The notes beneath the pieces were generated by a model that saw nothing but the letters and a program-made list of their open reading frames with translations, had not been told where the DNA came from and made no database searches. Positions 1 through 40,663 of a DNA stretch of 40,663 bases are shown piece after piece. Both the position numbers and the translations under genes were made by a program. Location of the stretch: the IMG/VR virus record IMGVR_UViG_3300031673_000175, positions 1 through 40,663 of that record; one strand, written 5' to 3'. The number at the start of each line of letters is the position of its first letter. Position 1 is the first letter of the stretch. The stretch comes from a virus.

Positions 1-39
1 CCCCGGCGACGCCGCAACTAAACTGGTAAAGCGCGTCAT
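1..39 (-). CDS. Mini-ORF B4 of coupled repeat array (partial, runs off window)
   Basis: Thirteen codons are visible, beginning MTRFTSLVAASPG. The start ATG overlaps the TGA of the preceding mini-ORF as ATGA, and a CGGAG ribosome site lies six bases upstream. The reading frame leaves the window at position 1. If the genome is circular it would continue at 40663; with one C removed from the junction it would read on to WESST and stop at the next ATGA. That would make this a hybrid unit that begins like the left array and ends like the right array. Function unknown. Confidence 0.45.
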   Translation of the reverse strand, partial: MTRFTSLVAASPG

Positions 40-269
40 TTGCTGCTCCGCGCCCACGACCGCGACGCCCACGACCTCGACGCCCACGACCCTGACGCCC
101 ACGACAGCGACACCCACGACCACGACGCCCACGACCTCGACGACCACGACCTCGACACCCACGACCACGACGCCCATGACATCGACACCCACGACCACGA
201 CGCCCATGACCCCGACACCCACGACCCCGACGCCCACGACGGCGCAACTAAAACGGTAAAGCGCGTCAT
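36..269 (-). CDS. Mini-ORF B3: Ser/Trp pentad-repeat protein
   Basis: A 77-residue frame starts MTRFTVLVAPSWAS and continues as an S-W-A/V-S-X pentad repeat, where X is G, R, W or M, ending in WARSSK. Its ATG overlaps the upstream stop (ATGA) and its own stop overlaps the next ATG, so translation is probably coupled along the array. CGGAG lies six bases before the start. All frames through this low-complexity DNA are open, so openness alone is weak evidence. The case for coding rests on the ribosome site, the ATGA junctions and the consistent frame. No known family was recognised. Confidence 0.5.
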   Translation of the reverse strand: MTRFTVLVAPSWASGSWVSGSWASWSWVSMSWASWSWVSRSWSSRSWASWSWVSLSWASGSWASRSWASRSWARSSK

Positions 270-583
270 TTGCTGCTCCGCGCCCACGACCTCGACACCC
301 ACGACCACGACGCCCACGACCACGACACCCACGACCTCGACGCCCAGGCCCGCGCCCACGGCCGCGACGCCCAGGCCCGCGACACCCACGACCACGACGC
401 CCACGACCCTGACGCCCACGACAGCGACACCCACGACCACGACGCCCACGACATCGACGCCCACGACCCCGACGCCCATGACCCCGACGCCCATGACCCC
501 GACGCCCACGACCGCGACCCCAACGCCCACGACCGCGACGACCACCCCGGCGACGCCGCAACTAAAGTGGTAAAGCGCGTCAT
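266..583 (-). CDS. Mini-ORF B2: Ser/Trp pentad-repeat protein
   Basis: The longest unit of the left array (105 residues). It starts MTRFTTLVAASPGWSSRSW, has many SWASX pentads (15-nt DNA period), and ends WARSSK at an ATGA junction with B3. The short hydrophobic N-terminal stretch (residues 4-10) recurs in every unit. Alternating Ser with Trp, Arg and Gly would put Ser on one side of an extended strand and Trp/Arg on the other. Function unknown; a membrane-active or surface peptide is only a guess. Confidence 0.5.
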   Translation of the reverse strand: MTRFTTLVAASPGWSSRSWALGSRSWASGSWASGSWASGSWASMSWASWSWVSLSWASGSWASWSWVSRAWASRPWARAWASRSWVSWSWASWSWVSRSWARSSK

Positions 584-708
584 TTGCTGCTCCGCGCCCA
601 CGACCGCGACGCCCACGACCCCGACGCCCACGACCCTGACGCCCACGACCGCGACACCCACGACCACGACGCCCACGACGGCGCAACTAAAACGGTAAAG
701 CGCGTCAT
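580..708 (-). CDS. Mini-ORF B1: first Ser/Trp pentad-repeat protein of left array
   Basis: A 42-residue frame starting MTRFTVLVAPSWAS and ending WARSSK. It is the first unit of the array and lies 37 bases downstream of the 746-1063 gene. The sequence before its ATG (GTGGGCGCGGAGCAGCAA) is the same unit tail found between later units, so each duplication carried the end of the preceding unit along with the ribosome site. The stop overlaps the ATG of B2. Confidence 0.5.
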   Translation of the reverse strand: MTRFTVLVAPSWASWSWVSRSWASGSWASGSWASRSWARSSK

Positions 709-745: not shown

Positions 746-1063
746 TTATTTAAGCACGGGAACAGGGTGCCGCCATGAAAAAACTTCTACACACGCAGAT
801 GTGTTAACCCTATTTTCCCCCTCTATTGGCTCCGCTTTTACAACTTTGCCAGTTCGAAACATTGCACCGAACTCTCCGGAAGCCTCGACAGATATACAGG
901 GGTTTAGATGCAGCCAAACATTACCACTGCACTCGGATATCCGCACGATGCGGCCAATGGAGTGTGAAGTGACAGTGCGGCAAAACACACTCTCCCCAAC
1001 AACGAATGTAGAATTTTCGGCGGCGCCAACGGCGCTCGCGATATCGGATTTATTAACACTCAT
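746..1063 (-). CDS. Hypothetical protein, 105 aa
   Basis: A soluble-looking protein of ordinary composition, beginning MSVNKSDIASAVGAAENSTF and ending HPVPVLK. No domain recognised. The ATG at 1063 is supported by AAGGAG about ten bases upstream, inside the last codons of the metallopeptidase/VWA gene, so the two are co-transcribed and probably coupled. It is the last ordinary gene before the mini-ORF array. The stretch between Phe20 and Val50 (VVGESVFCRTVTSHSIGRIV) could be a small beta-barrel, but this is not enough to assign a function. Confidence 0.75.
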   Translation of the reverse strand: MSVNKSDIASAVGAAENSTFVVGESVFCRTVTSHSIGRIVRISECSGNVWLHLNPCISVEASGEFGAMFRTGKVVKAEPIEGENRVNTSACVEVFSWRHPVPVLK

Positions 1064-1066
1064 GAT

Positions 1067-2125
1067 TCATGACTCCTTGGTTGGATAGTTAACCCAACTG
1101 CCCCACGGCGGTTGAGTGGGCGATACCCAGATAATTCCCGGCTGTGGTGGCCCATACTCGCCACAACCATCGGTGATGTAGAGCGCGATATCCGGCGCGC
1201 GCCGCGCAATCTCGGCCAGTGCCGGCCGGAAATCCGTACCTCCTCCGCCCTTGGCGGCGTACACCAAACTGGCGGCGCACTGCACGTCCTCCACAACAGA
1301 CTGCACGGCGGCATCGGCGTAAATCACATCCAGGCGCGCAAGGCCGGTGACACCCAGCGCCAGCGAGATCGCGATGCGCACATCGGAGTCTCGCATCGAG
1401 CCGGACGTATCCACTGCAATCACGACGTAACCGTCTGGCCGCTCAACCGGCCCTGGCAGCAGCGCACAGCGCCGCGACGGCGGAGCCCACGTCTCGTTGT
1501 CGTAATCCAAGGCCAGTGCGACAACCTGCGATACCACATCTGCCAGGGTTGCGACCGGCTTAGGCTCGGCCAGCGTGCGCGCCAGGGCGGCGGGCAGTGT
1601 ACCCCACCGGCTCTGCGCACGCATCTGGCGCCAGCGCTGCGTCGCTTCCGAGAACGCCTGTGCCGGTGTCCGCCCTGGCTGCGGCGGCGCATCCTCGACA
1701 ACGCCCCACTGCGGCGCAGAGCCCCCAGGCGGCAGCAGATCATATATCTGCTCTGCGTTCATCACAGCCCACTTCGGCGGGCACACCAGGGCGCCGTCAG
1801 GTAGTACGTAGCCTGCGTCTGCGACGTATGGGTTGACCTCGTAATCGCACGCGATGTTCCATCGTCTCATCTCTCGCGTGCCGCGCCGAAGGTGATGGCC
1901 GAGCAAAACATGCAATATCTCGTGGACCCACACGCCCGCGCGCTCCGCGTCGCTCCATGCGGCCACCGCGACAGGATCGTACGCGATACGGCTACCGTCC
2001 GTTCCGCAGGTTCCGAGATCGGCCGCGACGACCAATTCTAGGCTAAGGAGCGCGCGACCGAGATAGGGCGAGTACAGCAAAATATCGTTACGCGCACGCG
2101 TCCACAACGGATGATCGCCAGTCAT
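1067..2125 (-). CDS. Zinc metallopeptidase-like / VWA domain protein (DUF2201-like)
   Basis: 352 residues. The N-terminal half carries a zinc-peptidase signature HEILHVLLGH at residues 68-77, as in VWA-like metallopeptidase (DUF2201) proteins. The C-terminal half is a von Willebrand A-like domain with an intact metal-ion site: DTSGSM at 239-244, Thr297 in GGTDF and Asp319 in YITDG. It overlaps the AAA+ ATPase stop (TGATG); a GTG three bases earlier is an alternative start. MoxR-type ATPases paired with VWA proteins commonly act together in metal insertion or complex remodelling. The phage role is unknown. Confidence 0.88.
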   Translation of the reverse strand: MTGDHPLWTRARNDILLYSPYLGRALLSLELVVAADLGTCGTDGSRIAYDPVAVAAWSDAERAGVWVHEILHVLLGHHLRRGTREMRRWNIACDYEVNPYVADAGYVLPDGALVCPPKWAVMNAEQIYDLLPPGGSAPQWGVVEDAPPQPGRTPAQAFSEATQRWRQMRAQSRWGTLPAALARTLAEPKPVATLADVVSQVVALALDYDNETWAPPSRRCALLPGPVERPDGYVVIAVDTSGSMRDSDVRIAISLALGVTGLARLDVIYADAAVQSVVEDVQCAASLVYAAKGGGGTDFRPALAEIARRAPDIALYITDGCGEYGPPQPGIIWVSPTQPPWGSWVNYPTKES

Positions 2126-3108
2126 CACAGTAGCTCACGATGATCGACTGCCCACCGCTGGAACTCGACTGTCTGTTTCAAGGCAGGCCAAACATCCGCT
2201 GCGCCGCTTACCAAGGCGATTTCCCATCCACCACCAAGCGCGGATGCGAGAGCCAGAACACGGCCCACCTGCTGCTGGACAGCGCGGGCAGCAATTACGG
2301 TGATCGCGTGGAGCAAATCCGGCTTTCCAGCGTATTTTTTGGCGGTTTTTTCTGGCGCGGCCAAAATATCAGTCAGCGACGGCAGTTTTGCGGCACTAGC
2401 TGCATACGCGGACAGATCGCTAGCTGCTGCTTCGCCAATCCAGCCGGCTAACAGCGAGATATCGGAGACGCCACGCTGCATCAGCCGCCCGGCCTGAGCT
2501 AGAGAGCGAGGGGTGCAATAAGCTGCCATCGGCGCGTCGGGCACCGTAGCTGCATAGCAGTCCGGCCTAAATCCGGGGTAAGCGGCGACGGCAGGATGAA
2601 TATCTGGTTGCACAAGCGCCCACTGGCGCCACGCATTGGGGTCAGCGGCAACCTCGCACATCTGCACGCGGCCGACGAGAGCCGCCAGCAGCGGGCGCAC
2701 GCCAGAACGATCCGTCACGCGATTCGTCGCAAGCACGATCAGCACGTCGTCACGCAGTGCCGCGTCGCCCAGGCGGCGTGCCCACACAAGCTGCATCAGC
2801 GCCGCCTGGACAGGCGCTGGGGCCTGGCCTACGTCGTCCAGGAGCAGCACGGCAGGCCTGTCAGACGGCTCGGTCAGGCGCCTCAGCGTCCCGAGAGGCA
2901 GCCAGTGTGCAGCGCCGTCGATCACCGCAGGCAGACCGCGATAATCGACGGATTGTGCGATCACAGGGTGATCCACGACTAGATCGTAGCCGTGATCAGC
3001 GGCCCACGATTCGGTCATTGCAGTTTTGCCGATGCCGGGCGCCCCTATCAGGCACACAGGATTCGAGGAAGACAGGCAGTCTAAAGCGGCTGTGATTGAT
3101 ACAGTCAT
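2125..3108 (-). CDS. MoxR-type AAA+ ATPase
   Basis: 327 residues. Walker A is GAPGIGKT (22-29), Walker B LLLDD (88-92), and a sensor-1-like LATN ends at Asn129. It is probably a ring-forming ATPase that remodels a partner. The adjacent metallopeptidase/VWA protein is the natural partner, because MoxR-VWA pairs are a recurrent arrangement. The ATG at 3108 is chosen because it overlaps the upstream stop (ATGA) and GGAG lies six bases upstream; a TTG at 3120 is less likely. Confidence 0.9.
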   Translation of the reverse strand: MTVSITAALDCLSSSNPVCLIGAPGIGKTAMTESWAADHGYDLVVDHPVIAQSVDYRGLPAVIDGAAHWLPLGTLRRLTEPSDRPAVLLLDDVGQAPAPVQAALMQLVWARRLGDAALRDDVLIVLATNRVTDRSGVRPLLAALVGRVQMCEVAADPNAWRQWALVQPDIHPAVAAYPGFRPDCYAATVPDAPMAAYCTPRSLAQAGRLMQRGVSDISLLAGWIGEAAASDLSAYAASAAKLPSLTDILAAPEKTAKKYAGKPDLLHAITVIAARAVQQQVGRVLALASALGGGWEIALVSGAADVWPALKQTVEFQRWAVDHRELL

Positions 3109-3437
3109 GGTGCTCTCCAAAATTCGGCGCGGCTCTCGGCAGCGCGTTCAGATTCGAGATCGCACGCCTCGGCACAAAAAACGTCAAGACGCGGATGCAG
3201 ATGGCTCACAATTAAGTGCGTGCCGGCCGGCATTTCGTCATCTTCGTCGGGCCAGCACTCGATGCGATACGGCCCCGGCCAATTGTAGCAGTAGCGATTA
3301 CCTACATAGACCTGAGCGAGCGCGAAAAGGGCTTCCCGCTCCGCATCCTCCCAATAGTCGGACTGGACCCAGGTTTCGATAGCTGTCCACCGTTCTTCGC
3401 GTGCGAAGTGGATTTTACGCTGTAACTGCAAGCGCAT
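3105..3437 (-). CDS. Hypothetical acidic protein, 110 aa
   Basis: Starts MRLQLQRKIHFAREERWTAI. Rich in Trp, Tyr and acidic residues (for example ECWPDEDDEMP near residues 60-70). No domain recognised. It overlaps the upstream gene by 23 bases and the ATPase gene by the ATGA at 3105-3108, so it is part of the coupled leftward operon. The ribosome site of the ATPase lies within its last codons. Confidence 0.72.
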   Translation of the reverse strand: MRLQLQRKIHFAREERWTAIETWVQSDYWEDAEREALFALAQVYVGNRYCYNWPGPYRIECWPDEDDEMPAGTHLIVSHLHPRLDVFCAEACDLESERAAESRAEFWRAP

Positions 3438-4000: not shown

Positions 4001-4242
4001 TTCGCCACCCGCGCGCGCTTCGCCTTCTTTGCGGCTTCGTAATCGGCTGCGTCGCGTGCCCATTGGGCAATTCCCCGCTGGCGGTAGAGATCGTGCTGCA
4101 TGGCTTCAAGGTCCGGGTGGGCGTCCCAAGCGGCCTGCCAGCTTTTGGCGGACTCGGGATCGATCTTTTCAAGAGACTGCATCTTGGCGTGCAAATCATC
4201 AATCTTGCGGTCGATTTTGGCGATTTCTTGAACCGGCGTCAT
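3997..4242 (-). CDS. Small coiled-coil protein, 81 aa
   Basis: Starts MTPVQEIAKIDRKIDDLHAK. Heptad-like spacing of Ile/Leu/Met in residues 5-30 suggests a short coiled coil, and the C-terminus is basic (AAKKAKRARVAK). Both ends are ATGA overlaps with neighbours, placing it firmly in the operon. Function unknown. Confidence 0.72.
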   Translation of the reverse strand: MTPVQEIAKIDRKIDDLHAKMQSLEKIDPESAKSWQAAWDAHPDLEAMQHDLYRQRGIAQWARDAADYEAAKKAKRARVAK

Positions 4243-4907
4243 TTCTCAGCTCCTGCCATATTACCAATAGCGATTGCTGCCATGCGTTCGATGTAGTCCA
4301 AGCAAGCGTACGTCTCCGTAGCCTTCCTGGTAGCGGGGTACTCCCTTTCGATATGCTCCCTATAGTCTTCCGTAGTCATGGTACGGCACCCAGCGCGCAC
4401 TAGTATGGCTGCGGACCCTTGAAGGGAGAATGCCAAGAAAGCATAAGGGTCCGTTACCCTGTTACACGTACCTACGTAGGCGTGAAGGGTGAAACCACCA
4501 CACGTCGCACCCGCAAGGTCCGCACCCGCAAGGTTCGCACCCCGAAGGTCCGCATCCCCAAGGTTCGCACGCGCAAGGTTCGCACCCGCAAGGTCCGCAC
4601 CCCGAAGGTCCGCACGCGCAAGGTCCGCACCCGCAAGGTTCGCACCCCGAAGGTCCGCATCCCGAAGGTTCGCACCCGCAAGGCCCGCATCCCCAAGGTT
4701 CGCACGCGCAAGGTACGCACCCGCAAGGTCCGCACCCCGAAGGTCCGCACGCGCAAGGTCCGCACCCGCAAGGTCCGCACCCGCAAGGTTCGCACCCCGA
4801 AGGTCCGCATCCCAAAGGCTTTCCGCCTCCAATGCCACTAGTACCTTTGTGGGGTCCCAGCGTGAAACTATCTTGATTGTCATAGTAGGTTGCTCCTCAT
4901 TGGTCAT
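4239..4907 (-). CDS. Pentapeptide-repeat protein
   Basis: 222 residues. Residues about 33-137 are a run of A-D/N-L-x-x repeats (for example ADLRGANLAGADLAGADL), the signature of a right-handed quadrilateral beta-helix. A C-terminal segment (about 138-222) is non-repetitive and helical. Some members of the family mimic DNA and bind gyrase, others have unrelated roles; neither is shown here. The ATG at 4907 has GGAG eight bases upstream and overlaps the 44-codon gene before it; an internal ATG at codon 9 is possible. The coding DNA is itself a 15-nt repeat. Confidence 0.88.
   Translation of the reverse strand: MTNEEQPTMTIKIVSRWDPTKVLVALEAESLWDADLRGANLAGADLAGADLARADLRGADLAGAYLARANLGDAGLAGANLRDADLRGANLAGADLARADLRGADLAGANLARANLGDADLRGANLAGADLAGATCGGFTLHAYVGTCNRVTDPYAFLAFSLQGSAAILVRAGCRTMTTEDYREHIEREYPATRKATETYACLDYIERMAAIAIGNMAGAEK
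4493..4833. repeat. 15-nt tandem repeat inside pentapeptide gene
   Basis: Units of the type CGCAAGGTCCGCACC repeat with small changes through the pentapeptide region. The other reading frames stay open only because of this periodicity and are shadows. The 15-nt period equals that of the left mini-ORF array. Confidence 0.85.
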
Positions 4908-5363: not shown

Positions 5364-5725
5364 CGGAATACACTAATCCTATCAACGGTCACAAGTTAAT
5401 AACGCCTGCCTCTCTCTGTCTGCGATAGGCTCTCGATCATCCTTGCCTAGGACACTTGAGGTCACGCTTGCTGTGCCGGCGCCGCGCGGCCTCTTTTTTC
5501 GGTTGTCCGAGAAAACCTAGGCTTTCCGTGCGTTTCGCCCGTAGCTGCACCAAGATCACCTATAAGGCTATATACCTCCTCACTCCTCACTCTCTCCTCC
5601 GGCCTTGGGCCGGCTGAACGATGGCAGCGGGGAAGCTCGTTCAGCCTCGTCCTGCTAGGCTGCCTCGTCACAGGAGAGACAGATTGTTGCGCCATCCCAT
5701 TCACCTTCACTCCCACATCAAAACT

Positions 5726-5738
5726 GACAGTTTGTCAG
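5726..5738. promoter_or_regulatory. TGAC-N5-GTCA palindrome
   Basis: TGACAGTTTGTCA in the non-coding region between the two divergent operons. Confidence 0.5.
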
Positions 5739-5851: not shown

Positions 5852-5878
5852 TGACAATCTGTCACTGACAATCTGTCA
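5852..5878. promoter_or_regulatory. Tandem pair of TGAC-N5-GTCA palindromes
   Basis: Two copies of TGACAATCTGTCA at 5852-5864 and 5866-5878, offset by 14 bp. The same 14-bp offset pair recurs at 10935-10961. Tandem palindromes of this kind usually bind a dimeric regulator; none was identified in the window. Confidence 0.55.
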
Positions 5879-6549: not shown

Positions 6550-7194
6550 ATGTCAGAAGCGAAAAGGGTGCGGACAAAGCCGGGCTATAAGCTCAAGAAT
6601 GGCGAGACTCCGCTCATAAACCTGGACCCCGAGAGGAAATACGGTCCGGCGATGTCGCGGCTCACCGATGCGCGCAAGCGGTTCGTACTGGCCTATGTGA
6701 TGAAGGGCGGCCGGAATACCTCGGAATGCGCGCGCTGGGCCGGGTACAAGGACAGCAAAGAGATCAAGAAGACCGCCTATGGTCTGACGCACGATCCTTT
6801 CGTGCTGGAAGCCATCCGGGAAGAGGCGGACATTTTCTTTCGCGGGAGCGTGCTGCGGGCCGGTCATAAGCTGGACGAGCTTCTGGACAGCGATCAACCC
6901 AGGATTGCACTGGAGGCCGCCAAGGAACTGCTGAACCGGGGCGGCATGATCGTGGCGACCCAGCACAATGTGACCGTCGAGCACATAGAGACGCGCTCGA
7001 CCGAGGAGCTTCTGGAGATCGTACGCAAGTTCCAGGCGGATTCGCCGTTGCTGGCGGCTCCTGTGCCGAAACCACGGCAACTCGCCATCGATGCCGAGTT
7101 TACGGTTGTCGAACCGGACGTAGCCCAAGTACGCGAAAACGAACATTCTCAAATGTCAGCGGACGGTGACAGCGAGAAGGGCGAGAACGTATGA
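6550..7194 (+). CDS. terS: Terminase small subunit
   Basis: 214 residues. The N-terminal half has the helix-turn-helix layout of phage terminase small subunits (LTDARKRFVLAYVMKGGRNT, then SECARWAGY, near residues 37-75), used to recognise viral DNA for packaging. A charged C-terminal tail follows. Its stop overlaps the ATG of the large subunit (ATGA), the usual terS-terL arrangement. The ATG at 6550 is preferred; the in-frame extension to 6454 overlaps the previous gene. Confidence 0.85.
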   Translation: MSEAKRVRTKPGYKLKNGETPLINLDPERKYGPAMSRLTDARKRFVLAYVMKGGRNTSECARWAGYKDSKEIKKTAYGLTHDPFVLEAIREEADIFFRGSVLRAGHKLDELLDSDQPRIALEAAKELLNRGGMIVATQHNVTVEHIETRSTEELLEIVRKFQADSPLLAAPVPKPRQLAIDAEFTVVEPDVAQVRENEHSQMSADGDSEKGENV

Positions 7195-8670: not shown

Positions 8671-8862
8671 ATGTCCGAGACATACTGTCCGGCGAACGGA
8701 AAGATGCGCTTCGCCACGCCGGGACAGGCCGAGCGCACAATGCGCCGGGACCGCAAGAAAAAAGGTCACATGTCGATCTATGTCTGCGGAACCTGCGGCG
8801 GCTATCATCTGGGGCGAGAACGCGAGCACAGGAAAACCAACTGGAGGCGCAACGGATGGTGA
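8671..8862 (+). CDS. Small zinc-ribbon-like protein, 63 aa
   Basis: Starts MSETYCPANGKMRFATPGQA. Cys6 and the CGTCGGYHLG knuckle (about 39-48) suggest a zinc ribbon of the kind often found as small phage proteins next to terL. The centre is basic (RRDRKKKGH). It begins one base after terL and overlaps the next gene by seven bases (ATGGTGA). Confidence 0.75.
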   Translation: MSETYCPANGKMRFATPGQAERTMRRDRKKKGHMSIYVCGTCGGYHLGREREHRKTNWRRNGW

Positions 8863-9245
8863 CGACCTATCGCCGCTTCGTCGCCGAGACCAAGCGCCTC
8901 GAAGGCTTGCAGGGCGTTCCGACAAAGCGCGAAATGTACGCACACAGCGCGTTCGCGTGCGAGTCTTTGACCGTAACATCTGTGCATCGTATCGCATTGG
9001 CGTTCTCCTTCCTGGACAATAACGTCGAGAATGCCAAGATCAAGTCCGCCATCTTCAAGACCCAACTCTTGACGCCGCGCGAGATTCACGATTGCTGTCT
9101 CCGGTCCAAACCTTTCGATCATGGAAACGGCATCTACGCCCGTGCCATGTGGCTGAGGATGATGGTACGTCTTGGCGCGGAAGATATCGCGCTGAAACGG
9201 GGATTTCTGGCCTCATTCTACCTGCCGCCGAGCGGCCCCGCATGA
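8856..9245 (+). CDS. Hypothetical protein, 129 aa
   Basis: Starts MVTTYRRFVAETKRLEGLQG. Predominantly helical, with no recognised motif. Its stop overlaps the ATG of the first mini-ORF of the plus-strand array (ATGA at 9242-9245), so that array begins coupled to it. Function unknown. Confidence 0.75.
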   Translation: MVTTYRRFVAETKRLEGLQGVPTKREMYAHSAFACESLTVTSVHRIALAFSFLDNNVENAKIKSAIFKTQLLTPREIHDCCLRSKPFDHGNGIYARAMWLRMMVRLGAEDIALKRGFLASFYLPPSGPA

Positions 9246-9463
9246 CGCCCGTGGCGGTCATCTATGTCGGGAGCCTGGGGTCGGGGTCGGGGTCGTGGTC
9301 GCGGTCGTGGTCGGGGTCGCGGTCGTGGTCGCGGTCGTGGTCGCGGTCGCGGTCGTGGTCGGGGTCGGAGTCGTGGTCGCGGTCGTGGTCGCGGTCGCGG
9401 TCGTGGTCGCGGTCGTGGTCGCGGTCGTGGTCGGGGTCGTGGTCGTGGGAGAGCAGCACATGA
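9242..9463 (+). CDS. Mini-ORF A1: Ser-X dipeptide-repeat protein
   Basis: 73 residues. Starts MTPVAVIYVGSLGSGSGS and then is almost wholly Ser alternating with W, R, G or E (SWSRSWSGSRSWSRS), ending WESST. The DNA period is six bases, and the variable base is the first base of every second codon. The start overlaps the previous gene's stop, and the stop overlaps the next ATG. The N-terminus parallels the left-array units (MTRFTVLVAP) in hydrophobic pattern although the DNA differs. Function unknown. Confidence 0.5.
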   Translation: MTPVAVIYVGSLGSGSGSWSRSWSGSRSWSRSWSRSRSWSGSESWSRSWSRSRSWSRSWSRSWSGSWSWESST

Positions 9464-9642
9464 CGCCCGTGGCGGTCATCTATGTCGGGAGCCTGGGGTC
9501 GGGGTCGGGGTCGCGGTCGTGGTTGTGGTCGCGGTCGTGGTCGGGGTCGGGGTTGTGGTCGCGGTCGTGGTCGTGGTCGTGGTCGGGGTCGTGGTCGCGG
9601 TCGTGGTCGGGGTCGCGGTCGTGGTCGCGGTCGTGGGAGAGC
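9275..9642. repeat. Plus-strand hexamer array (GGTCGN)n in two blocks
   Basis: Two blocks of six-base units GGTCGN, where N is mostly T, C or G, separated by a non-repetitive unit boundary at about 9448-9497. The boundary contains the stop, ribosome site and start of the next mini-ORF. All forward frames are open here. Confidence 0.9.
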
Positions 9643-9651
9643 AGCACATGA
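9460..9651 (+). CDS. Mini-ORF A2: Ser-X dipeptide-repeat protein
   Basis: 63 residues. It repeats the A1 start (MTPVAVIYVGSLGSGSGS), then a different order of SR, SW, SG and SL dipeptides, ending WESST. GGGAG lies eight bases upstream of the ATG and the ATGA junctions are intact on both sides. The changed order of dipeptides relative to A1 shows that the repeats diversify while frame is kept. Confidence 0.5.
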   Translation: MTPVAVIYVGSLGSGSGSRSWLWSRSWSGSGLWSRSWSWSWSGSWSRSWSGSRSWSRSWESST

Positions 9652-9734
9652 CGCCCGTGGCCGAATCATCCTATGTTCGCCGTCATGAGTGCAAAGGTTT
9701 CAGACAGCGAACGTGCGGCCATCGCGGCCTATAA
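9648..9734 (+). CDS. Mini-ORF A3: degenerate array end, 28 aa
   Basis: Shares the first 14 bases after the ATG junction with A1 and A2 (MTPVA), then diverges (ESSYVRRHECKGF) and stops at 9734 without repeats. It overlaps the start of the HTH gene. It probably marks the boundary where the array meets the neighbouring sequence, and may not make a functional product. Confidence 0.3.
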   Translation: MTPVAESSYVRRHECKGFRQRTCGHRGL

Positions 9735-10592: not shown

Positions 10593-10937
10593 ATGCGGAT
10601 CACGCCGGTCATGCTGGAGGCCACCTACGAGCTTCTGCTGGCGACGCCGCCATTCCGAGGCTGGCATTTGCCCGAAGCGGACGACGTGGAGTTTCACGTC
10701 ACACGGCATAAGGACCGTTGCGGCGATCATGTTTTCGACGGCAAGCGGCATATCATCAGGATATCCTCTACCCTCCACGGCAGGCTGATACCAATCCTAC
10801 AGACCATGGCGCACGAGATGTGCCACGTTCGCACGTCCTTGACCGCCCCATGGGAGCGCGGAGAACACGGCGAGCATTTCCGTCGCGCCGCTCGGTCAGC
10901 CTGCCGGGAGCACGGCTGGGACGTGGCGTCGTTCTGA
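10593..10937 (+). CDS. SprT-like zinc metalloprotease domain protein
   Basis: 114 residues. HEMCH at residues 74-78 is the zinc-protease motif, followed by further histidines in GEHGEHF (about 90-96), as in small SprT-like proteins. SprT and Spartan relatives cleave proteins bound or crosslinked to DNA. In a phage it might clear host DNA-binding proteins or assist head maturation; both are speculative. It ends just before a cluster of three palindromic boxes. Confidence 0.8.
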   Translation: MRITPVMLEATYELLLATPPFRGWHLPEADDVEFHVTRHKDRCGDHVFDGKRHIIRISSTLHGRLIPILQTMAHEMCHVRTSLTAPWERGEHGEHFRRAARSACREHGWDVASF

Positions 10938-11003
10938 CAATTTGTCAGTGACAATCTGTCATTGACCTTGCGCAGCGACTCAGGCAAAGTTGACAGTGCG
11001 TCA
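10935..11003. promoter_or_regulatory. Three TGAC-N5-GTCA palindromes
   Basis: Boxes at 10935-10947 (TGACAATTTGTCA), 10949-10961 (TGACAATCTGTCA) and 10991-11003 (TGACAGTGCGTCA). The first two are offset by 14 bp, like the pair at 5852. The third has arms extending to AAAGTTGAC and GTCAACTTT, a perfect 9-bp inverted repeat around five bases. They separate the small-gene block from the portal block. Confidence 0.6.
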
Positions 11004-40354: not shown

Positions 40355-40373
40355 ATATATCGATACGATATAT
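40355..40373. other. AT-rich inverted repeat between convergent genes
   Basis: ATATATCG, three-base loop, CGATATAT: perfect 8-bp arms just before the end of the right-hand mini-ORF. It may act as a weak bidirectional terminator; base pairs are mostly A-T. The surrounding 40244-40354 holds no gene I can support. Confidence 0.4.
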
Positions 40374-40636
40374 TAGATTGACCACGACCACGACTCCGAC
40401 CCCGACCACGACACCGACCACGACCACGACCGCGACCCCGACCCCGACCACGACACCGACACCGACCCCGACCCCGACCACGACCCCGACCGCGACCACG
40501 ACCCCGACCGCGACCACGACTCCGACCCCGACCACGACCGCGACCGCGACCGCGACCCCGACCGCGACCACGACCCCGACCACGACCACGACCGCGACCC
40601 CAGGCTCCCGACATAGATGACCGCCACGGGCGTCAT
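40373..40636 (-). CDS. Mini-ORF A-right: Ser-X dipeptide-repeat protein
   Basis: 87 residues. Begins MTPVAVIYVGSLGSRSWSWS, identical to A1/A2 for the first 14 residues, then Ser alternating with W, R, G, E or V, ending SWSI at a TAA. GGGAG lies eight bases before the ATG (GGGAGAGCAGCACATG). Unlike the other units it ends outside the repeat, making it the last unit of the leftward array if the map is circular. Confidence 0.5.
   Translation of the reverse strand: MTPVAVIYVGSLGSRSWSWSGSWSRSGSRSRSRSWSGSESWSRSGSWSRSGSWSGSGSVSVSWSGSGSRSWSWSVSWSGSESWSWSI
40379..40600. repeat. Right-end hexamer array
   Basis: Runs of the six-base unit CGACCN, the complement of the plus-strand array at 9275-9642. 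A unit boundary follows at 40601-40655, and the window ends within a further copy. Assembly of such repeats from short reads is unreliable, so copy number is uncertain. Confidence 0.85.
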
Positions 40637-40663
40637 GTGCTGCTCTCCCACGACCCCGACCAC

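Follow-up and report, generated by a model that had tools for sequence, protein, structure and literature searches.

The window analyzed here is the whole 40,663-base phage record IMGVR_UViG_3300031673_000175 of IMG/VR, whose genes include those for a terminase, a portal and a major capsid protein. Its array at 9242-9734 (denoted B) consists of overlapping genes on the plus strand, each encoding a short leader followed by a chain in which serine alternates with a variable residue, (Ser-X)n. Unit B1 (9242..9463) encodes 73 amino acids, MTPVAVIYVGSLGSGSGSWSRSW...WSWESST*, and starts with the leader MTPVAVIYVGSLGS, referred to below as leader B; unit B2 (9460..9651; 63 amino acids) has the same leader and the same WESST tail. 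B3 (9648..9734) is the remnant of a third leader, a 28-codon open reading frame that matches over the first 14 nt (ATGACGCCCGTGGC) only and diverges thereafter. ATGA junctions connect these units at 9460/9463 and 9648/9651, and a further one at 9242/9245 overlaps the start of B1 with the stop of a 129-residue gene (8856..9245, +), for which we found no Pfam or PHROGs match and which is not Sm-like in a profile search. Shine-Dalgarno-like GGGAG sequences can be read at 9447..9451, 8 nt 5' of the B2 ATG, and at 9635-9639, 5' of the B3 ATG (both +). The arrangement proposed in the first-pass annotation, with two units sharing leader, WESST end and ATGA junctions, coupling to the stop of the 8856-9245 gene and a degenerate third unit, is thus read directly from the sequence.

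A second set of such genes occupies the left end of the window on the minus strand. It comprises A1 (580..708; 42 amino acids, leader MTRFTVLVAP followed by S-W-A-S-X repeats), A2 (266..583; 105 amino acids), A3 (36..269; 77 amino acids) and A4 (1..39), which is truncated by the contig end; A2 and A3 each have an ATGA overlap. The repeat unit is 15 nt (S-W-A-S-X) in this left array (1-708, -) versus 6 nt (S-X) in the 9242 array. At the right end of the window, a unit of 87 amino acids with an identical leader B, MTPVAVIYVGSLGSRSW...WSI (40373..40636, -), is accompanied by the tail ...SGSWESST of a further unit (40633..40663, -), likewise truncated by the contig end. The left and right-end arrays may be continuous with each other, should the genome be circular. 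The first-pass annotation had overlooked the right-end array, the difference in repeat unit and the Sm-like gene described below.

The start context GAGCAGCA-N-ATGACGC, which had been proposed to be shared between the arrays, occurs at both internal junctions of the 9242 array and at all four left-array leaders. It is absent before B1, whose start sits inside the stop of the upstream gene. The context includes a Shine-Dalgarno sequence (GGAG or GGGAG) 6-8 nt 5' of the ATG, and is therefore at least in part a ribosome-binding site; ribosome binding alone can account for part of it.

Directly 5' of the left array lies a gene for a 105-residue Sm-like protein (746..1063, -), a member of the family denoted (a) below (profile E 3.8e-14, or 2.9e-24 when the profile includes that protein; AF2 model). 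This gene and the left array form the canonical module of the window, whereas the 9242-9651 array, which follows a gene that is not Sm-like, is an extra copy. Array copies can accordingly move within a genome; compare L255, in which two Ser-X genes with the leader MIHSEPAY lie at 7143 and 9314 (+), away from the Sm-like gene. One of the L255 genes is located directly 3' of a 707-residue DNA-polymerase-like gene. Other features of the window are a MoxR-type AAA ATPase and DUF2201 metallopeptidase/VWA pair (1067-3120, -), directly 5' of the Sm-like gene, and a pentapeptide-repeat protein whose gene has a 15-nt repeated DNA unit (4239-4907, -). The palindrome TGACANNNTGTCA occurs in five exact copies at 5725-5737, 5852-5878 and 10935-10961, of which four form two tandem pairs, and with up to one mismatch it has 8 matches in the window against 0.8 expected; these copies are candidate operators for a regulator of the phage. 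Rfam covariance models gave no match to the window at the gathering score.

A scan of IMG/VR for exact (GGTCGN)7 returned at least 120 stretches, from which 131 arrays were taken. A second scan, for GGTCHN, which leaves out TCG, added at least 120 stretches, most of them with similar leaders and a body written in TCT, TCA or TCC, and some monotonous or chance arrays. Together with the start and stop placement described below, at least 231 different (S-X)n stretches of mixed composition from IMG/VR contigs and a circular GenBank virome genome, MW202573.1, which encodes MNAAIIRAGLDASWSWSWSWSRSRSWSWSGSRSGSRSRSGSGS, bear out the earlier claim of a real gene family as opposed to random simple-sequence expansion. 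In that genome, UOF78858.1, annotated as a hypothetical protein, is a family member (MNAAIIRAGLDASWSWSWSWSRSRSW...) behind a family (a) gene. Unspecific matches of a scan with the short GAGCAGCANATGACGC served later as random controls, and no (S[RWG])8 run was present in any frame of 117 random IMG/VR stretches (1.1 Mb). The array-selected sets favor perfect arrays and short reads assemble repeat arrays poorly, so that the counts are lower bounds; they refer to raw contigs, with kinship ignored.

As to the metagenomic search suggested earlier, for the window's leader followed by (SX)n copies, Ser-X arrays occur in hundreds of contigs, whereas the window leaders have no exact copy elsewhere. 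The exact leader B 27-mer had no match in IMG/VR and the joint leader-plus-repeat pattern had none either; a pattern scan of genome contigs gave 29 stretches, none with an S-X run, and these were set aside as chance. Neither does the trait track the terminase, since none of the 31 loci of terminase relatives (L148-L178) had an S-X run. Searches of PHROGs and Pfam with the Ser-X protein or its partner gave no matches or scattered weak ones, and no description of a Ser-X/Sm-like pairing was found in the literature searched, which comprised few subscription papers and no preprints. Both contig ends lie inside arrays in L210/L260, L229/L309, L233/L256 and L244/L258. Arrays are hence a common assembly breakpoint, and a contig that ends in arrays may represent a whole, circular genome.

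The position of starts and stops identifies the frame that is read. Within the 131 (GGTCGN)n arrays, an ATG no more than 90 nt upstream was found for the S-X frame (TCG NGG) in 90 of 109 cases, compared with 25 and 15 for the other frames; a stop within 30 nt past the array end was found for the S-X frame in 88 of 105 cases, compared with 21 and 15. Moreover, NAG or NGA substitutions after N=T, which would make TAG or TGA, were absent (0/37, P about 4e-7). A GR frame, with N at a synonymous site, and a minus-strand PR frame were considered and rejected: N is silent there, yet starts, stops and stop avoidance favor S-X. A simple satellite with a uniform unit and no frame constraint was also rejected, the phage arrays being frame-constrained and mixed. 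The Ser-X arrays are thus genes that code for protein, and their family is widespread among phages.

Across 4,502 units of the IMG/VR arrays listed, the X position is taken by Arg, Trp and Gly with frequencies of.341,.312 and.347, respectively, and each stays near one third from a GC content below 0.36 to one above 0.6. The codons are far more uniform within arrays than between them. Among the 231 mixed arrays listed, the dominant Ser codon is TCG in 130, TCT in 60, TCA in 30, AGC in 8, AGT in 2 and TCC in 1; a single Ser codon is used in 205 and a single Arg codon in 203, the latter being CGG or AGG, with AGG mostly in AT-rich phages. Uniformity per array combined with differences between phages indicates that what is constrained is the composition of the protein and not a DNA motif. 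The first base of the X codon is saturated and the other positions are nearly fixed; in TCG arrays, the 5-mer GGTCG is constant, N is variable and the synonymous Ser positions vary least. This low variability at synonymous sites fits fast homogenization, although a nucleotide constraint inside an array could produce it as well. The order of X is near random, with identical neighbors slightly rarer (.308 versus.344). The longest repeated X word averages 6.3 versus 4.8 in shuffled arrays (23 of 98 arrays at p<=0.05), an excess expected from growth by duplication. Uniform synonymous codons together with saturation at X suggest that units turn over fast and in frame while selection favors balanced Arg, Trp and Gly.

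The gene 5' of the arrays repeatedly belongs to one of two related families, (a) and (b), which are homologous to each other (probability 96.8, E 2.7e-10). AF2 models reached a pLDDT of 88 for the window protein (family a) and 92 for family (b). Compared with Sm/LSm structures, the family (a) model gave a Z of 9.2 and an rmsd of 1.9 A over 69 residues and the family (b) model a Z of 10.9 and an rmsd of 2.3 A over 69 residues, and for both families the best 50 rows of the structural comparison were all Sm/LSm PDB chains; the Foldseek E values were only about 1e-2 to 1e-3. The partner protein is therefore predicted to have the Sm/LSm fold, a small, strongly bent beta barrel. At the sequence level, Pfam LSM matched none of 5 members at E<=1 and none of 63 members at E<=0.05, the partner proteins are not usefully recognized by any Pfam or PHROGs family, and profile searches of the PDB with these families returned nothing significant. 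Close to the last strands there is an RG.[IV] motif, which is no more than suggestive.

The association between the two genes holds from either side. In array-selected loci, 110 of 155 partner-family genes have an array within 120 nt; when loci were collected through the Sm-like protein alone, a Ser-X open reading frame lay no more than 600 nt downstream in 58 of 74, and the 16 loci without one include five near-identical contigs. About a fifth of family (a) genes lack a recognizable downstream array. In L460-L464, five near-identical contigs, the family (a) gene is followed by unrelated sequence, forming a lineage without a recognizable array. The Sm-like gene is present once per record in the 21 records searched, except for one record with two matches, and the Ser-X open reading frame is separate from it, with its own start and often an ATGA overlap.

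The leaders fall into several types, such as MNxAxxRxG[FY][DE], M..KQKY[RW], GNINT and YIGS, which sets aside the proposed MTxxxVxxV leader as a family hallmark; what is constant is the S-X body and, usually, the upstream Sm-like gene. MTPAIYIGS in L457, MITTTYIGS in L494 and MVASNYIGS in L499 resemble leader B. Leader type covaries with partner family: R.G[FY][DE] leaders occur 29 times with family (a) and never with family (b), and basic KQKY-type leaders twice with family (a) and 30 times with family (b) (Fisher P 2e-15, kinship ignored). This covariation may also reflect shared descent of linked genes. In 42 leaders of the commonest type, R.G[FY][DE], to which the window's leaders do not belong, pN/pS is 0.41 with pS saturated, and the Arg never changes although all six of its codons occur.

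The Ser-X/Sm-like module sits in an early DNA-metabolism region, where neighboring genes encode ParB-like, methyltransferase, exonuclease, DnaB-like helicase, Sak4 and HNH proteins. Four protein queries across collections found the partner gene in phage records only in two Manatee Spring virome genomes, in no cultured phage and nowhere in the plasmid collection, and the hosts are hence probably uncultured.

As the best joint explanation of these data we propose, at slightly less than even confidence, that a leader-docked, disordered Ser-X chain and the Sm-like protein form an early phage ribonucleoprotein or condensate. The leader would dock the chain on its cognate Sm-like protein, a step suggested by the way in which leader type tracks Sm-like subtype. 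The disordered cationic-aromatic chain would then act in trans as a nucleic-acid-binding, possibly condensing, tail of the kind that some Sm proteins have in cis, and the resulting particle would handle phage RNA or DNA. The body would lengthen and shorten via in-frame repeat duplication, with selection holding the balance of Arg, Trp and Gly. A more specific version, that in hundreds of uncultured phages a trans-acting natural random copolymer (Ser alternating with Arg/Trp/Gly 1:1:1), selected for composition and not for sequence, builds a ribonucleoprotein condensate with a dedicated Sm-like ring protein, its leaders being partner-specific docking tags, is offered tentatively and is the less probable of the two.

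Protamine-like compaction of DNA, in replication compartments or for packaging, with the Sm-like protein as a mere co-expressed regulator, would account for the Arg-rich body and for the early or terminase-adjacent position of the genes. We consider it unlikely, because one third Trp and one third Gly are unlike protamine, and because the steady Sm-like association and the leader covariation suggest a joint function. Slightly more doubtful is a membrane-active or toxic Arg/Trp peptide, controlled by the Sm-like protein and used in lysis, in rival exclusion or as the toxic half of a toxin-antitoxin gene pair. The small overlapping two-gene layout, the high Arg and Trp content and the extra array copies per genome are in line with such a peptide, but the neighbors are DNA-metabolism genes and not lysis genes (including the L329 annotation), and the partner fold is of the RNA-ring type and not that of a known antitoxin. 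To our knowledge, strict Ser alternation with one-third Gly is also atypical of lytic peptides.

An explanation at the nucleic-acid level, in which GGTCGN arrays are DNA or RNA binding sites and coding is incidental, is improbable. A DNA-motif role for GGTCG was favored at first on account of the constant third base of the Ser codon, with N varying and the synonymous Ser position least variable in TCG arrays, and was dropped on finding TCT, TCA, TCC and AGC arrays: the at least 120 further stretches, most with TCT, TCA or TCC and others with AGC or AGT, have no common DNA motif, and stops harmful to the S-X frame are avoided. Still less probable is a neutral satellite, a slippage by-product without function. 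Repeats do grow by duplication, and such hexamer arrays, including (GGTCGT)n and (GGTCTC)n satellites, are present in the DNA of 8 of 369 bacterial genomes of one class (that of a Hydrogenophaga genome); these are essentially monotonous, however, whereas the phage arrays are three-letter mixtures near 1:1:1 at every GC content, with leaders, Shine-Dalgarno sequences, stop avoidance and a constant partner gene. Targeted hypermutation of the X codon, as by a diversity-generating retroelement, would produce a saturated first base among nearly fixed positions, but is scarcely credible given that most arrays use just one of A or C, unlike random mutagenesis, and that no PF00078 reverse transcriptase was found in 21 records (the window and 20 array-bearing phage records, which may be fragments).

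If the ribonucleoprotein or condensate reading is true, a widespread phage protein class has been overlooked by standard annotation, being of low complexity, small and absent from the cultured-phage records searched. Selection would shape the composition of a near-random chain but not the order of its residues, which would make these genes a clean natural test of sticker-and-spacer ideas on disordered proteins. Sm/LSm biology would be extended to a phage two-gene module with its tail in trans, echoing the Sm-plus-repeat proteins of Borgs. Because Ser-X arrays break assemblies, they may also account for many contig ends.

Eukaryotic RNA-binding proteins have SR and RGG low-complexity domains, which combine Ser, Arg and Gly with aromatics and are expected to bind RNA and to phase separate. 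The Ser-X chain resembles these domains in residue content and expected behavior, and differs from them in its strict dipeptide alternation, its Trp and its lack of a folded RNA-binding domain. Rof/YaeO, an Sm-like inhibitor of Rho, is likewise a small Sm-like bacterial regulator (PMC11018626); it is not known to have a repeat partner. With Hfq, which has a disordered C-terminal tail (PMC5606850), and with archaeal and eukaryotic Sm-LSm proteins, the phage system shares the Sm fold, as judged by model comparison, and the idea of a disordered tail tuning a ring; the phage tail differs in being in trans and cationic-aromatic, not acidic, and its partner has no sequence-level LSM match. Borgs, too, are mobile genetic elements in which an Sm-fold protein is combined with a disordered, low-complexity chain of tandem repeats: in their Sm ribonucleoproteins, in-frame amino-acid repeats are fused in cis to the Sm protein (PMC9879509, Schoelmerich et al. 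2023). The phage Ser-X genes have neither the fused repeat nor the perfect unit of the Borg type: the Borg repeat is N-terminal, in cis and perfect or near-perfect, whereas the phage repeat is encoded by a separate, coupled gene as Ser plus a random mix of Arg, Trp and Gly, and it resides in phage-sized genomes across hundreds of contigs.
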